23,364 bases of DNA from a virus. The DNA lies in IMG/VR virus record IMGVR_UViG_3300018049_000156, positions 1 to 23,364 of that record; one strand, 5' to 3'. The notes beneath the pieces were generated by a model. That model was not told where the DNA came from, did no database searches, and saw only the letters and a program-made list of their open reading frames with translations. This document shows, piece after piece, positions 2,584-14,296 of this stretch; within the stretch, counting starts at the first letter, position 1; each line of letters begins with the position of its first letter. The position numbers and the translations under genes are program-made.

Positions 2584-3207
2584 TTATTGGAGACCGTTGA
2601 TTATATTAACCAACGATTCTTTTAGATATTTTTGTGCCTTAGGATCTTCTTTAACTTCTCTGCCTAGTTGTAATGCCTTGTATCCGCCTCTTGCATTCAT
2701 CAAATGTTCGTATATTGGACTAGGATACGCACTCGGTGCGCTTGGTTGTGCAACAATATCTACTGTTACAATTTCAAACTCACTAACACGCCCGGACCCG
2801 TCTTCTTGAACATTTCCTGAACCTCTACTTGAAACACCTAATTTTACGCCGCCTTCTAGTAGTGTTTTTACTAGTTGACCCATAGGAGTTTCTAAAATTT
2901 TCAGTTTGCCATAACCTTTAGAGCCTTCGCACCACATACCTTCGATCATATGTGAAACACGATCAATATTGATGTTAAGGCCTTCGGGATGGTCAACTTC
3001 ACCGAGTACAGAATAGCCGCCTTTAATTTGCTCATTTATAGATTCGACAGCTTTTTGAATTTCATTCATCGGATATACTCGAGAGTTAGCATTTTTTACA
3101 TCACCCTCAATGAAAATTCCTTTCATGAACAAATTTCTGCCTTCATTAGCAGACTCAACAACTATTTTAGCATCGTCAAATGTAAGGTTTTCTATTAAGT
3201 TAACCAT
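2584..3207 (-). CDS. 21: Prohead maturation protease (T4 gp21-like)
   Basis: This serine protease is carried inside the prohead, where it cleaves the scaffold, capsid protein and internal proteins during maturation. The 207 aa show the family hallmarks: NSRVYP near 41-46, the probable catalytic histidine in VDHPEG (His73), a DRVSH block, and the probable nucleophile in GVSSRG (Ser126 or Ser127), with VDIVAQPSAP near 149-158 supplying a likely third catalytic residue (Asp150). Length and motif order match gp21 (peptidase family U9/S80 type). The ribosome site AAAGGAA overlaps the TAA stop of the upstream core gene, which suggests coupled translation. Confidence 0.93.
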   Translation of the reverse strand: MVNLIENLTFDDAKIVVESANEGRNLFMKGIFIEGDVKNANSRVYPMNEIQKAVESINEQIKGGYSVLGEVDHPEGLNINIDRVSHMIEGMWCEGSKGYGKLKILETPMGQLVKTLLEGGVKLGVSSRGSGNVQEDGSGRVSEFEIVTVDIVAQPSAPSAYPSPIYEHLMNARGGYKALQLGREVKEDPKAQKYLKESLVNIINGLQ

Positions 3208-3217
3208 CCCTGTTCCT

Positions 3218-3856
3218 TTAGTTAGCTACTGGAGATTTCGCACCATCAGCTTTTTTAGCTGCGCCGCCGCTAACTGATCTTAGTTTTTGGGTGCTACCTG
3301 GTTTGTTTACATTACCGCCATCTTCTTCTTTTACAGATGGAGCAGAACGACCATTTTCAGTTCCGCCTTGAGCAATGTTACTAGCATCACCTTCGCCTAT
3401 TGATGCACCTGGACCATTTGGCGATTTAGTGTTAACACCGTCGTCGCCCATTTTTGCACTTACAGGTTTTGTGTATTCATCTAGCTTCTTCATATAAGAT
3501 GCCATCATTTCTGACTCAGTTTTTGGTTCTTCTTCAGGCTCTTCGTCTTCAGGCTCTTCATCTTCAGGCTCTTCGTCTTCGACATCATCTACAAAGTCAT
3601 CAGTAGCGTCGCCGCCCATTGGCATGTCGCCTTCGTCTTCTTCAGGCTCTTCGCCTTCGTCTTCTTCATCGTCCATCATTGCTGCAAATTGATCTTGAAG
3701 ATCTTTAAGTTGGGCTTCTAAATCGTCAATATCTCCTTGAGTAGCTGGCTCATCTTCTGCTGACATCATGTCGTCGTCCATTGGGCCCATTGGTCCGTCA
3801 TCGTCGCCCATTGGTCCGTCATCGTCGTCCATTGGTCCTTCGAACTCCATTGACAT
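3218..3856 (-). CDS. Distal part of acidic prohead core protein, after an in-frame amber codon
   Basis: The 212 aa are extremely acidic. They begin with GPM-DDD repeats (residues 7-30), continue with a short coiled coil (near 42-62), several EEPEDE repeats to about 111, then a Gly/Asn/Ser-rich tail that turns basic. The reading frame is the same as that of the 68-aa ORF upstream (3953-4159); only one TAG at 3953-3955 and 32 further codons separate that ORF from this ATG. No Shine-Dalgarno sequence precedes this ATG. The natural product is therefore probably one protein of about 313 aa, and this piece is made only by amber readthrough, by weak internal initiation or not at all. In T4 the position between gp20 and gp21 is held by core proteins gp67 and gp68. 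Confidence 0.65.
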   Translation of the reverse strand: MSMEFEGPMDDDDGPMGDDDGPMGPMDDDMMSAEDEPATQGDIDDLEAQLKDLQDQFAAMMDDEEDEGEEPEEDEGDMPMGGDATDDFVDDVEDEEPEDEEPEDEEPEEEPKTESEMMASYMKKLDEYTKPVSAKMGDDGVNTKSPNGPGASIGEGDASNIAQGGTENGRSAPSVKEEDGGNVNKPGSTQKLRSVSGGAAKKADGAKSPVAN

Positions 3857-3862
3857 TTCGTC

Positions 3863-3970
3863 GTCGTCTTCTTCTAGATCCCAGTCCTCGTCAAGGTCCC
3901 AATCTTCTTCTAGATCTTCATCTTCTTCTAGATCTTCATCTTCTTCTAGATCCTAATCTTCCTCAAGTTC
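3863..3970 (-). repeat. Six-fold 18-bp tandem repeat encoding acidic hexapeptides
   Basis: Read on the minus strand, six 18-base units encode (D/E)-L-(E/D)-E-D-X. The last position is, in order, amber, Glu, Glu, Trp, Trp, Asp. The units are nearly identical in DNA (GATCTAGAAGAAGATGAA), so slippage could change copy number. The amber codon at 3953-3955 occupies exactly position X of the first unit. Confidence 0.9.
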
Positions 3971-4159
3971 TTCGTCACTTTCGTCAAGTTCTAGTTCTTC
4001 ATCTTCTTCAATTTCATCGTACATGTCATTTTCTAGTAGACTTTCGTAGATGTTTCTTGATTTTTCTACAACAATCTCATGAAAGAGATCTTTTGCGCCT
4101 TGAACGTCTTCATTAACTAAACGCTCAAGCATTTCTTCAAACTTATTAGCCTTAGCCAT
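3953..4159 (-). CDS. Proximal part of prohead core protein (gp67/gp68-like), ends at amber codon
   Basis: The 68 aa begin with a helical domain (residues 5-45) of the kind KFEEMLERL, then LFHEIVVEKSRNIYESLL, that I associate with T4-type prohead core proteins gp67/gp68, and then become almost wholly Glu/Asp. These small acidic proteins sit in the scaffold core and affect head shape; gp21 cleaves them. Position between gp20 and gp21 supports the call. The AAAGGATATAA ribosome site lies just before the ATG. The ORF stops at TAG 3953-3955, but the frame continues open without another stop to 3218. A free 68-aa product is possible but would lack the coiled coil and tail of the full protein. Confidence 0.7.
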   Translation of the reverse strand: MAKANKFEEMLERLVNEDVQGAKDLFHEIVVEKSRNIYESLLENDMYDEIEEDEELELDESDEELEED

Positions 4160-4264
4160 TTTATATCCTTTCTAATGTATAAGTGCTTACGTACACATAG
4201 GAAAAAATACTCTTACTTTTTAAGGTAAAAGAATTTTCCAATGAATGATTGTAAACTGTCATGT

Positions 4265-4272
4265 TATTTACG
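4265..4272 (-). promoter_or_regulatory. Weak candidate late promoter upstream of the core gene
   Basis: CGTAAATA on the minus strand shares the TAAATA core of the other late-promoter candidates but lies about 105 bp before the start at 4159. A second near-match, TATAAACA at 4292-4299, is alternative. The 160-bp gap 4160-4319 holds nothing else I can support. Confidence 0.3.
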
Positions 4273-4319
4273 TATTTTATTAAAAAACTAGTGTTTATAC
4301 GTACTTTTTTGGTATATTT

Positions 4320-5012
4320 TTACATACCAGGATGTATGTTTAAAAAAACATCTTTATGCATAATTTTTAAATTTTTAAATTTATCTAATTCCGAAGGCAT
4401 AAAAGTGTTATGATCAATTACTCTTACAAATTGTACTTTTGGATTTTGCTCAATTACTGTCTTAGTTTGCCTTAACCAGTTTCCATAAAAAGTAGCGCCG
4501 TCGGTTGATCTTTTATAGTTTTCAGTATCTGCAAAAATATTGTTAAATTTAGTACCGTTTTGTAACCCCTGGTAATCAAAACCTAAAATATAAATTACGT
4601 CATATCCCTGTTGTGTTGCCATCCAAAGTGCAGTAGGACCACTGCTCCATCCCTTGCTTGGCTTAAAATAATTTAAATTATCGAAATTTTCATAAGCTTT
4701 GTTATAATTTGTCCATACCTGATGATTTTTTGAATAACCACTTTTGTTTATTTCAAGAATCATTTTTACATCAACTGCTATTAAAAAATCAGGTGTACAA
4801 TCTCTGTAAATTGCATTGCAGCCGTATACAACGCCATGTTTTGATAAACCATTTATGCTTATGCCGCTTCTACTAGTACCGTTGCCTATAACATATGCAG
4901 TTTTTGCACCAGCAACTTTTTTAGAACGCTCTTGTATTTTTTTAAATTTTTTATCTTGTTTTAATTGCTTATACTGTTCTTTTGTGTACAAGGACTTATC
5001 GATTTTAGGCAT
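4320..5012 (-). CDS. GT42/DUF115 (MptE)-like Rossmann protein, possible glycosyltransferase
   Basis: The 230 aa have a basic N-terminal helix (1-35), then a core resembling the GT42 sialyltransferase and DUF115/MptE superfamily: GNGTSR at 43-48 (family GNGPS), GCNAIYR at 64-70 (family RCNxFY), a PDF-IAVD strand near 74-81, SSGPTALW at 123-130 and YILGFDY at 141-147 (family TSG, A-A-LGY-IYL-GxDFY). These elements form the nucleotide-binding core in that superfamily. Members transfer sugars or pyrophosphate; the substrate here cannot be read. The gene lies inside the head operon, 3 bp after the 77-aa gene, so it should be expressed late with capsid proteins. Possible roles are virion glycosylation or DNA-base sugar modification, both inferred. 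A 6-bp hairpin sits at its stop codon. Confidence 0.6.
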   Translation of the reverse strand: MPKIDKSLYTKEQYKQLKQDKKFKKIQERSKKVAGAKTAYVIGNGTSRSGISINGLSKHGVVYGCNAIYRDCTPDFLIAVDVKMILEINKSGYSKNHQVWTNYNKAYENFDNLNYFKPSKGWSSGPTALWMATQQGYDVIYILGFDYQGLQNGTKFNNIFADTENYKRSTDGATFYGNWLRQTKTVIEQNPKVQFVRVIDHNTFMPSELDKFKNLKIMHKDVFLNIHPGM

Positions 5013-5262: not shown

Positions 5263-6996
5263 CTATAAACCGCCTGTGCCGCCTGCTGGGGGCGTAGCTC
5301 CTGGTTCTGGCGGTGCGGTTGCAGTATCTGGCGGAGTACCTTGATCTATAGCACCTGCTGTTAAATCATCAGTAGGAGCAACTTGATCCATTGCTCCTAA
5401 ATCAGCACCTATGCCACCTGCACTTACTCCTGCCATTCTCATTTCAGCGCTACCATCTGCTTGTAAAGCTTGTTCAGGGTCAGCGTTTTCTTCTTTCCAT
5501 AAAGTTTCGTTTTGAGCTATTTCTTCTTTTGTTAAACCTAAGAATCGTTCAAGCGCAAATCTATTTGAAATATACGGCAATGCTGCCATTTGACCAAATG
5601 TAGGAACTCTAGCATTATCAAGTTCTGCTTGTCTATAACTTGCAAAATTTTGTGGTTTTACAAAAGCAAGATCGAACATTTGCACGTCTATGTTAACTTC
5701 TTTTTCAAGTAAGTAGCGTTTGAATTCTCTATTAAAAGTTTCAATTAACAAGCCTTGCAAACGTTCGCAATAGGTGTTGAATCTTAGCTCTTGTATGTAA
5801 GCAGTGCCTACTCTACCATCTTGGAAATTGTTTGCGCCGTCATCAGCACCTGTCGGAAGATAACTACTAGGAATACGCAAACCTCTTACTAATTTATTTG
5901 TAAAATAACGTAAATCGTCGATTTCGCCTAGGTTTGTACCACCGGGCAATGTTTCAACCTTAGACCCTCTACCTTCAGCAGTCTGAGGAAAGAAGTAGTC
6001 TTCGTTTATTGAAAGCGGGTTGTAAGATGAGTCTATTACATTAGTGCCTCCGCCTGTTGCACTAGGTATTCTACGTTGATGAATTTCAGTTTTAACTCTT
6101 TCAACAAACTGCATTGCTAAGTGTGCAGGCATATTACCTACGTCAACATAAAACACTCTACGCTCGGGTGCACGCTGTACTCTGTAAATAATAATTGCAT
6201 CTTCTAGTAATTCTTTTTGTTTGTATACTTTGAATACAGTTTCTAATAAACTATTACCAAAAGGAAAATTATTATCTAAGCCTTCGCTTAAACTTAAATG
6301 TAGTATATGTTCTGCTGCAATACCTAATTCTTGTTGTTCTTTGTAGAATCTGTTACCAGATTGTTGCGCAGTATTTCCTAGCATGCCTCTTGCACCACCA
6401 GTTAGGTAATTGCCACTAGAATTACCGCCTTGGATATTTCCGTTAGTTTGGTGTGGGGTTGTAGCAATTCCTTCTACAAAGTTAAAATTTATATCCCTAA
6501 CTACGTATTGCTCAGGTATTTTTCCTTTGCTTTCATTTACAATTATACGAGAAACTTTAGCAGGATCTACATGATAAAGTTTTTTAGTTTCTGGATCCCG
6601 TAGAAACATTTCGTCGCCATATTTAAACACATTCCTAAATATTCTAAACATCTTAGTGTCAAAATCATTTAGCTTGCACCATTGGCGCATATATTGTGTT
6701 AATATTTCTATTTCTGAATTAGTTGCCGGTTTGTTAAATTCAAAATCAAAATGGTTGCCTTGATGATTTTTTTGTGTACAAAATTCAGCAAGAATGTCTA
6801 GTGCAGCATTAACTTCACTATCTAAATCCATTGTATTATACTGACCATATCGTTCTACACGATTAGGAGAACCTACATAAACATCTGGCAAGTAACTGCT
6901 GTAGTTTGCACTTGCAGGTCCACTAGTATTAGTTGACGCTCCGTTAATAGGACTTACAGATCCGTCATATGGGGTAAAATATTTTTTCCAACTCAT
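5263..6996 (-). CDS. 20: Portal vertex protein (T4 gp20-like)
   Basis: The dodecameric portal initiates head assembly, is the DNA channel, docks the terminase and later joins the neck. The 577 aa (T4 gp20 is 524 aa) begin with a Ser/Asn/Gly-rich stretch, followed by LDSEVNAALDILAEFC near 58-73. The strongest hallmark is the central block APERRVFYVDVGNMP with an HQRRIPSATGG stretch (near residues 279-318), then the LPGG and LRIPSSYLP segments that are almost invariant in this family. The C-terminus is Ala/Pro/Gly-rich, low in complexity and longer than in T4. It is the first gene of the head operon, with a CATAAATA late promoter 24 bp upstream and a weak AAGTGA ribosome site. Confidence 0.95.
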   Translation of the reverse strand: MSWKKYFTPYDGSVSPINGASTNTSGPASANYSSYLPDVYVGSPNRVERYGQYNTMDLDSEVNAALDILAEFCTQKNHQGNHFDFEFNKPATNSEIEILTQYMRQWCKLNDFDTKMFRIFRNVFKYGDEMFLRDPETKKLYHVDPAKVSRIIVNESKGKIPEQYVVRDINFNFVEGIATTPHQTNGNIQGGNSSGNYLTGGARGMLGNTAQQSGNRFYKEQQELGIAAEHILHLSLSEGLDNNFPFGNSLLETVFKVYKQKELLEDAIIIYRVQRAPERRVFYVDVGNMPAHLAMQFVERVKTEIHQRRIPSATGGGTNVIDSSYNPLSINEDYFFPQTAEGRGSKVETLPGGTNLGEIDDLRYFTNKLVRGLRIPSSYLPTGADDGANNFQDGRVGTAYIQELRFNTYCERLQGLLIETFNREFKRYLLEKEVNIDVQMFDLAFVKPQNFASYRQAELDNARVPTFGQMAALPYISNRFALERFLGLTKEEIAQNETLWKEENADPEQALQADGSAEMRMAGVSAGGIGADLGAMDQVAPTDDLTAGAIDQGTPPDTATAPPEPGATPPAGGTGGL

Positions 6997-7528: not shown

Positions 7529-9688
7529 TTAATTTACTCCAGTTAAACTGTTTAATTGTACTTCTTTTTGGAGGTTTTGGTTAGAATATGAAGTTGTTAT
7601 AGCAGCTTGTGTTGTAGCACCTGCTTGACGATCAGCTCCGCTATCGATTGCTAATTTAATGTTTCTTAGCTCAGTTATAAAAGTTTGAAAGTTATCAATC
7701 AACATTTGTGGCACTCCGCCTTCGTCTTTTGAGCCAATAGTGCTTTCTAAACCTAAATCAGCATCAGATTTAAAATAAGCTCCGTCTCTTGTTTGAAGTC
7801 GACGGGATATATCTGTGTCGTCATTTCCGCCTAATACACCCTCAACTAAAGTGCCTGCACCCTCTACTAAATTGCCTAAAGCGTCTCTTACTGCGTTAGG
7901 TGCTGCACTAAAGTTAAATCCCGATTGCTCTGAAAGGTCTGCCGGTGTACCATTTAATTGTGCGTCTAATATTCGCTTACCTGTTTCTGACCTAAGCGCT
8001 TGTAGTATATCATTCAATACTTGCTGCTGCCCCTCAGTTAATTCAATTCCTGCTTGTTGTAAATCGTATAATTTTACAAAATCATCTAACATAACTTGCT
8101 CTGAGCTTGTAATTTGCCTTTCAGGGTCACTTTTAAATGTAAATGTGCCGGTTTTTATTTCTGCTACTATACTTTCGACAGCAGCATTTATTTGCTCTGC
8201 TCTTATGTCTGTTGCTTCAGAATCAGGACGCAGCAATTCTATACTGTTTGCTAAAGTTTCAGCTGCTGCGCCAATTGTTCCAGCAGCTACACTTACAAGT
8301 CCTAAATTTGCAACTATATCTGCTTGTGCATTAACAAGTTGTTCTGTTTGTCCTGCAATTTTTTGTCTAGTTTCAGTTAATGTACCTATAATTTCATCAT
8401 CCATTCTAGCATTCATTACATCTTGTGCTGCTGCTTGGTTTGCTGCTGTGGCATTAGGATCTGCTCCTGTTTGAAGAATTGATGCTCTCAAGTTTTGGGA
8501 ATCTCTAGATAAAAACCCAAATTCTTCACCCAATACACCCGCGAATGCACCTAGTTCTCCTACTAGATTAGTAGTTTCTTGATTATAAATTTGCTGTAAT
8601 TGCCGTTCAGCAGCTCTAATTTCCTCAGGATCTGCACCTGATGCAATCATTTGGCTAATTTGTTGCATCATTGCAAATGATTGTGGTTTCAAGGCCGCTT
8701 CTATTTCATTACCGATAGGTAGACCTAACCCGCTTATAAATCCTTCGCCTAGATCTGATGCTCCGATTGCTTGTAAAGTAGTTGCAAACCTTGTAAGATT
8801 TTGATTAAATTGCGGGTTGTTAATATTTCTAAGTTGTTGAGATAACATACCCGGTGTTTCTGCTATTGCCTTTGTTGCCTTTACTTGTTCATCTACAGAC
8901 ATGCCAGTAGTTTGCGAAAGCTCTACCATATTTGTAATTAGGTCTTCTTGTACGCTTATAAAATCAAGAACAGCTTGTCTACTTTCCGGCGTAGACTGGT
9001 TATTTTCATCTAGTAATTCTTTTAAATCTACTGCTACGGATGGTCCTAATACACTGCCTAATTGAATAAACATTTCAGATAGTTGAGAAGTGTTAAAACC
9101 TAATGCATCCATTTCTTGCACTAGATTTCGACTACCGTCAATTAACTGGCCATCTTCGCCTGCTTCCGGAATATTTTCAACTGCTTGTTTAAACAGTGCC
9201 ATATTACCTAAAACATCAGTAGCTAGTCCTCCTTGTGCTCTAAGTATATCTGGATTTGATCCTATTTGTTGCAGTTGTTGGTTTGTAATATTTAAATTAG
9301 CTTGATCTCTAAACAATTGCTCTATATTTGTAAACATAGTTCCTTGCTGTGCAAGTTGTTGCGAGACTGTTAGCTGTTGTTCAGCTAATAGAGCTGGTGC
9401 AGTTCCTATGTTAGCAAGTCCAGTTGGATCTAAACCAGCCATTGCTTCTATTGAACCTTGTGCATTACTAGCTGCTCTATTTGCTGTATTTAATATTGTA
9501 GAAGCAGTCTGTATAGCTCCGATCGTTTTATTAACTAAACTTAAATTAGCATCTTGTAATTGATTAATTGAAGTTGTTGCACCGGCTGTAGCACTATTAA
9601 ACGTATATAAACCATCACTAGAAACACCTAAAGCTGAATTAAGGGTAGTAATTGCTTCGGTTAGCTGCCTTAGTAGTTCTTCATCCAT
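7529..9688 (-). CDS. Large helical virion protein, possibly tape-measure-like
   Basis: The 719 aa are rich in Ala, Gln, Asn, Leu and Thr and almost entirely helical in character, with many short heptad-like stretches and no clear transmembrane helix or enzyme motif. A central part (about 190-400) has alternating helices with GLxxSQLSEMFxQLG and Gly-rich turns, a pattern I associate with tape-measure and related tail proteins of marine T4-like phages. The C-terminal 100 residues are polar and less ordered. It lies back to back with gp26, a baseplate-hub gene, with divergent late promoters between them. Ribosome site GGAAA. T4 gp29 is shorter (about 590 aa), and I see no motif that settles the call. 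Confidence 0.55.
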   Translation of the reverse strand: MDEELLRQLTEAITTLNSALGVSSDGLYTFNSATAGATTSINQLQDANLSLVNKTIGAIQTASTILNTANRAASNAQGSIEAMAGLDPTGLANIGTAPALLAEQQLTVSQQLAQQGTMFTNIEQLFRDQANLNITNQQLQQIGSNPDILRAQGGLATDVLGNMALFKQAVENIPEAGEDGQLIDGSRNLVQEMDALGFNTSQLSEMFIQLGSVLGPSVAVDLKELLDENNQSTPESRQAVLDFISVQEDLITNMVELSQTTGMSVDEQVKATKAIAETPGMLSQQLRNINNPQFNQNLTRFATTLQAIGASDLGEGFISGLGLPIGNEIEAALKPQSFAMMQQISQMIASGADPEEIRAAERQLQQIYNQETTNLVGELGAFAGVLGEEFGFLSRDSQNLRASILQTGADPNATAANQAAAQDVMNARMDDEIIGTLTETRQKIAGQTEQLVNAQADIVANLGLVSVAAGTIGAAAETLANSIELLRPDSEATDIRAEQINAAVESIVAEIKTGTFTFKSDPERQITSSEQVMLDDFVKLYDLQQAGIELTEGQQQVLNDILQALRSETGKRILDAQLNGTPADLSEQSGFNFSAAPNAVRDALGNLVEGAGTLVEGVLGGNDDTDISRRLQTRDGAYFKSDADLGLESTIGSKDEGGVPQMLIDNFQTFITELRNIKLAIDSGADRQAGATTQAAITTSYSNQNLQKEVQLNSLTGVN

Positions 9689-10590: not shown

Positions 10591-10808
10591 GACTCTCTGA
10601 TTCTGAGTTACAAGAATTGATTAAAAAATATGAAAATCAAATAAAAGAATTAAAATATAATGTTTATAAAATAGGCTGGTTTATGCGAGGTTTTATAACT
10701 TATACTGATGCTATGCATGTAATATCTAGCGAAGATTTAACAATATTTAATGATATAATAAAAGAAAATATGGATATTACAAAAGAAACAAAATTACCTT
10801 TTATCTAA
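10575..10808 (+). CDS. 51: Baseplate hub assembly protein (T4 gp51-like), probably a -1 frameshift extension of gp26
   Basis: The region encodes the conserved block of marine T4-like gp51: a Glu/Lys-rich helix, then IKELKYNVYKIGWFMRG, then a DLTIFNDIIKENMDITKETKLPF end that is very typical. No ATG precedes this block: the only candidate initiator is TTG at 10617, without a ribosome site, and it would cut off protein-like sequence (FFRSYILRLSDSELQEL) encoded upstream. The frame is -1 relative to gp26 and is entered from the heptamer at 10569-10575, adding 77 residues to give a fusion of about 354 aa. The stop TAA overlaps the stop of the convergent 354-aa gene. The role in hub assembly is inferred from T4. 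Confidence 0.75.
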   Translation, partial: RSYILRLSDSELQELIKKYENQIKELKYNVYKIGWFMRGFITYTDAMHVISSEDLTIFNDIIKENMDITKETKLPFI

Positions 10809-13855: not shown

Positions 13856-14296
13856 CTAAAGTTTTGTTTTACCTGTTTCATTGCCTAGGTACTCCTTTAA
13901 TATTTTAGAACTGCCTATCCTAACGTTTATTATTCCGTTATAGTAATTGTCAGATTCTAAAACTCGCCTTTCAAATTGTTCTCGTGCTTCTAAATAACTT
14001 GCAATGCCTCTACTGGGACAAATGTAAAGTATTTCTCTTGTAAATTTTTCTTTGCCTAAATTTTCTATGTCTTTTGTTAAATGATCAGAAGAACCCCAGT
14101 AGTCTCTCCAATCACTTTCTACTTTTGTACGCCTTTTGTTTTTCTTTCCTTTAAGAGGTGGTCGAGTTTTTGTAGATTTTGCGTATTTCTTGCCTATATA
14201 TTGCTTACCGTTAACTGTATTTGTAATCACATATACAAAACCTTCACAGTTATCAGGTAAACTATCGATTACATTGCCTTTATAGGTCCATTCCAT
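13856..14296 (-). CDS. GIY-YIG homing endonuclease
   Basis: This is a DNA endonuclease of the type encoded by free-standing mobile genes in T4-like phages (Seg family). The 146 aa hold one GIY-YIG domain: VYVI at 21-24 with the paired YIGKK at 33-37, a basic loop (KKNKRR near 51-56), an ESDWRDYWGSS block near 60-70 that is frequent in phage members, and a probable metal-binding Glu in the YLEAREQFE helix (Glu106). The residues needed for activity appear intact. There is no obvious DNA-binding tail after the domain. It lies at the end of the gp47-gp46 operon, beside the unusual hairpin-rich block, which could be its insertion site or cargo. No good ribosome site is visible before the ATG. Confidence 0.85.
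   Translation of the reverse strand: MEWTYKGNVIDSLPDNCEGFVYVITNTVNGKQYIGKKYAKSTKTRPPLKGKKNKRRTKVESDWRDYWGSSDHLTKDIENLGKEKFTREILYICPSRGIASYLEAREQFERRVLESDNYYNGIINVRIGSSKILKEYLGNETGKTKL

Follow-up and report, generated by a model that had tools for sequence, protein, structure and literature searches.

The stretch of DNA analysed here, referred to below as the window, is the IMG/VR virus record IMGVR_UViG_3300018049_000156, with a total length of 23,364 bases. Its first 7 kb carry, on the minus strand, a head gene cluster of the T4 type that is recognizable from the open reading frames (ORFs) and their PHROGs matches. The order of the genes on this strand is portal, a 77-aa ORF, a 230-aa ORF, the interrupted gene dealt with here, prohead protease, a gene at the position of gp22 and the major head protein. 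The gp20-type portal protein (5263-6996, ending in TAG) matches phrog_213 (E 6e-114), the gp21-type head maturation protease (2584-3207) phrog_207 (E 6.9e-58) and the gp23-type major head protein (270-1454) phrog_138 (E 8.2e-100); the gp22 (scaffold) gene (1468-2571) is named by its position only, its match being phrog_10922, of unknown function (E 1.6e-85). The best-listed relatives of the portal protein in the phage collection are only ca. 49% identical; they come from phages of Pseudomonas (PA5oct group) and Agrobacterium (Atu_ph07) with large genomes. The phage of the window therefore has no close cultured member in this collection. The 230-aa ORF (4320-5012, minus strand), located between the 77-aa gene and the core gene, has a weak match to a sialyltransferase family (phrog_4603, E 6.4e-06) and a stronger one to phrog_30607, of unknown function.

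The interrupted gene (3218-4159, minus strand) occupies the position of gp67 and comprises 313 codons, with one internal TAG in the window contig; an intact 313-aa counterpart is found in a near-identical contig (L089, see below). An ORF of 68 aa (4159-3953) is followed in the same frame by one of 212 aa (3856-3218, ending in TAA), and the sole stop within the 314-codon stretch is the TAG at codon 69 (3953-3955). The 68-aa piece holds the conserved residues 1-48 and the beginning of an acidic part, and the 212-aa piece, which starts at the next in-frame ATG, holds a conserved segment, DLE..L..F, as well as the C-terminal part. The TAG falls within an 18-bp tandem repeat of about four copies (3902-3973, identified with Tandem Repeats Finder and the codon list) that encodes acidic x-D-L-E-E-D units. 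It is the sixth codon of the unit, a place taken in the next five copies by GAA, GAA, TGG, TGG and GAC, and the 32 codons from the TAG to the ATG at 3856 continue the repeat. An earlier note on this DNA had described the two ORFs as lying in one frame split only by this TAG, and had given the same repeat codons; the ORFs and the codon list agree with it on both points.

The domain structure of the family was examined in 17 sequences chosen from the 69 complete relatives described below. It consists of a conserved N terminus (mean column identity of 86% over residues 1-48 in the 17 sequences), a repetitive acidic middle, and then the DLE..L..F segment and a C-terminal part, both of them conserved. 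In the intact relative, D and E make up 25% of residues 1-48 and 53% of residues 49-230. An excerpt of PMC9026906 describes T4 gp67 as a prohead core component cleaved by gp21, and gives L/I-X-E as the gp21 cleavage motif. The intact relative contains 12 such motifs, six of which fall in the repeat region (residues 65-95), although a motif this short is expected in an acidic protein. No PHROGs or Pfam family was found for the 68-aa or the 212-aa piece. Against the phage collection, megablast of the region 2800-4600 gave no match and neither did tblastn of the intact 313-aa relative, the latter probably because the acidic part was filtered. An exact-peptide method found no relative in the bacterial and archaeal genome collection. 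The 48-aa N terminus alone retrieved 11 Pseudomonas phage records from the phage collection at E 0.02, matches that are convincing only because gene order and a profile comparison could be added to them.

Among cultured phages, the closest relative found is a virion protein of Pseudomonas phage PA5oct, the 270-aa "structural protein" EST35_0151 (QCG76033.1), whose record notes its detection by mass spectrometry (ESI-MS/MS). Portal, small gene, core gene, protease, gp22 position and major head protein follow each other in the same order in both phages. Residues 1-39 are 44% identical to the window family (BLASTP E 7e-9 in a single comparison), and the comparison with the family profile by hhalign gave a probability of 98.0% (E 1.8e-13) over 125 columns that include the DLE..L..F segment. 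The PA5oct protein is less acidic (26% D/E versus 38%), and it has neither the DLEED repeat nor an internal stop. The extra 230-aa gene between the small gene and the core gene is present only in the window, and the 77-aa gene showed no sequence match to its PA5oct counterpart. In T4, gp67 likewise lies between gp20 and gp21 and, as in the window family, a short N-terminal region is followed by an acidic tail; however, it has 80 aa versus 313, and the profile match is weak (hhalign probability 22.3%, 22 columns). Another T4 prohead core protein, gp68, is also found between gp20 and gp21, but it has no sequence match to the window family and its C terminus is basic. In Agrobacterium phage Atu_ph07, other genes are located between the portal and a gene annotated as "prohead core protein". 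Position, acidity and the T4 precedent taken together indicate a prohead core protein, and the name of prohead core gene used in the earlier note is correct as to position and likely role. In this T4-related marine phage, the product would be an acidic scaffold protein of the prohead core, probably cut by the gp21-type protease during head maturation.

Two contigs from other IMG/VR samples, possibly not independent of the sample of the window, are ca. 99.9% identical to it. These are IMGVR_UViG_3300018428_000445 (L089, which also appears as L009; whole contig of 14,355 bases) and 3300017985_000173 (L090 and L095; whole contig of 19,204 bases). L089 differs from the window by 12 mismatches in 14355 bases and by two indels, of 1 bp (intergenic) and of 6 bp (in frame), and L095 by 16 mismatches in 19204 bases plus six gap positions. 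Both L089 and L090 have TGG at codon 69, where the window has TAG, a single G-to-A transition on the coding strand. At position 3887, the window and L090 have GAG and L089 has GAA; since the window sides here with L090 against L089, TGG is the shared state and TAG is derived in the window. The TAG is also the sole gene-breaking difference in a codon-by-codon comparison that covered all of L089 and 14422 of the 19204 bases of the contig of L090; the other differences in these stretches are substitutions, the in-frame 6-bp indel and the intergenic 1-bp indel, the last found only in L089. The 6-bp indel, at window position 7803 in a 719-aa ORF, sets the window apart from both contigs, and L090 has more substitutions nearby. 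In IMG/VR, the 33-mer immediately before the TAG matches only L089 and L090, and no other viral contig matches the 22-mer that begins with the TAG (the window's own record was perhaps outside both searches); a pattern search with the right flank retrieved only L089. A third near-identical contig (L003) stops short of the TAG site, so only two inform on codon 69. The earlier note had proposed looking among relatives for a single unbroken ORF with a length near 313 aa, and in the nearest relative it has exactly 313 aa.

A wider set of relatives was collected with the 68-aa part alone, a choice blind to the downstream sequence. It gave at least 598 confirmed relatives, and the survey covered the 80 best of these. 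The gene is complete in 69 of them, L089 being counted here, and runs off the contig end in the other 11. Every one of the complete relatives has a single uninterrupted ORF of 294-347 aa that ends in TAA, and together they represent 65 distinct proteins. The gene is also uninterrupted in three contigs (L091-L093) whose neighbouring head genes share ca. 79-84% identity with those of the window; the 212-aa part has matches of 37-38% in L004-L008. A stop at the site of codon 69 was found in 0 of the 69 complete relatives and in 0 of the two near-identical contigs (one contig is common to both sets), and therefore a conserved stop, a readthrough site or a gene split has no support among the relatives examined. 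As far as the compared sequences tell, the TAG is not a conserved feature.

The possibility that there are two genes here, with ATG 3856 as the start of the second, takes its appeal from the 212-aa frame, which is open and begins with an ATG. However, this ATG (and the one at 3850) has just upstream a match of at most three bases to the anti-Shine-Dalgarno sequence, against five at the true start at 4159 and five to seven for gp21, gp22 and gp23 (gp20 has only four, the 77-aa gene four and the 230-aa gene three). It lacks a ribosome site, as already remarked in the earlier note. The continuation of the repeat beyond the TAG, as far as the ATG, also speaks against two genes, as does the presence of a single gene in every complete relative and in the cultured homolog of PA5oct, which leaves this explanation with hardly any credibility. 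Very improbable as well is a leaky or programmed stop that would yield core proteins of two lengths, 68 and 313 aa. The frame does remain open past the TAG, and in T4 some head genes have additional products from internal starts (gp21' and gp17'), according to their annotation; the short gp21 is described as essential in the excerpt of PMC9026906. Against this, neither the 69 complete relatives nor the two near-identical contigs have an internal stop, and a 106-nt stretch that spans the TAG and the sequence following it shows no stronger folding than its shuffled versions (z 0.10). The idea is implausible because a regulated readthrough site would exist in a single contig only.

Suppression would be another way of living with the TAG. 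A real amber allele would be kept by an amber-suppressing tRNA of the host or the phage; a single substitution in a variable codon of the repeat would be tolerable if suppressed. However, ARAGORN detected no tRNA in the window, and 11 related records, of which two have 169 and 201 kb, gave no hit with the Rfam tRNA model (all 14 control genomes were positive); a suppressor tRNA with the CUA anticodon is thus missing from these records and from the window, the latter being a genome fragment. Besides, TAG ends four genes of the window, at 5263 (the portal), 10805, 13856 and 16323. The one at 13856 closes a 146-aa ORF (13856-14296, minus strand) that, judging by its motif, we take to resemble a GIY-YIG homing endonuclease. 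The portal gene of the relatives stops with TAA at 64 loci and with TAG at 12 (these are numbers of loci, to which some contigs contribute more than one), and therefore TAG is an ordinary stop in the group. General recoding, which the earlier note had held unlikely in view of the stops at 10805 and 13856, is excluded. An in-frame TAG within a structural gene recalls the TAG-recoded gut phages such as phAss-1, as portrayed in excerpts of PMC10607447 and PMC10879173; here, in contrast, there is one TAG in one gene, no suppressor tRNA was found in the records searched and TAG stops four genes. Among the genes of the window only the core gene has an in-frame TAG, and not many genes as in a TAG-recoded phage. 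We regard maintenance by a suppressor tRNA as very improbable. The same holds for a real, high-frequency allele in one phage population, tolerated by host amber suppression or low-level readthrough; if this were true, the strain would live with a mostly truncated core protein.

The explanation that we favor, with a probability of about 0.93 for the whole of it, is that the interrupted frame is one gene and not two, and that it carries a nonsense substitution present in one contig; either the genome is defective, or the repetitive DNA was wrongly assembled or called in the consensus. Among the options offered by the earlier note, the one in which the TAG comes from TGG, by a recent nonsense mutation or as an assembly variant, is supported by the two near-identical contigs and the uninterrupted relatives; the leaky stop and suppression have no support, given a stop that is not conserved, the lack of tRNAs in the window and the 11 records and the unremarkable downstream RNA fold. 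In the window contig alone, one codon of the tandem repeat that is TGG in the near-identical contigs reads TAG. This may be a rare nonsense allele, which would give a 68-aa stub and, in the absence of suppression, a defective genome; or the short repeat may have been misassembled or its consensus miscalled. We would give about even odds to a real mutation and to an error. Since a stop at codon 69 would remove both the C-terminal part and the conserved segment, we infer that the allele, if genuine, is probably a defective one. Exact 29-mers recur within the 18-bp array, and two of the three near-identical contigs break in this gene, L095 within the repeat (window position 3867) and L003 further along (3466), so that the gene is hard to assemble. 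Five of the 12 substitutions that separate the window from L089 fall in the 942-bp core gene, a cluster that would fit rapid evolution of the gene as well as local problems of assembly; the chance figure for it, 0.001, is based on 13 events, was picked after the data had been seen and assumes equal rates. The role in the core, the origin by mutation or error and the loss of function are what we infer from these comparisons.

A search of the literature retrieved nothing on premature stops in viral contigs. Most likely, the TAG reflects a mutation private to this contig or a slip of the assembly, rather than a novel mode of gene expression. The finding has in itself little biological importance, one premature stop in a low-complexity repeat splitting a gene that is whole in close relatives; its lesson is that, when a phage gene appears split in metagenomic data, near-identical contigs should be compared before recoding or the expression of two products is invoked.
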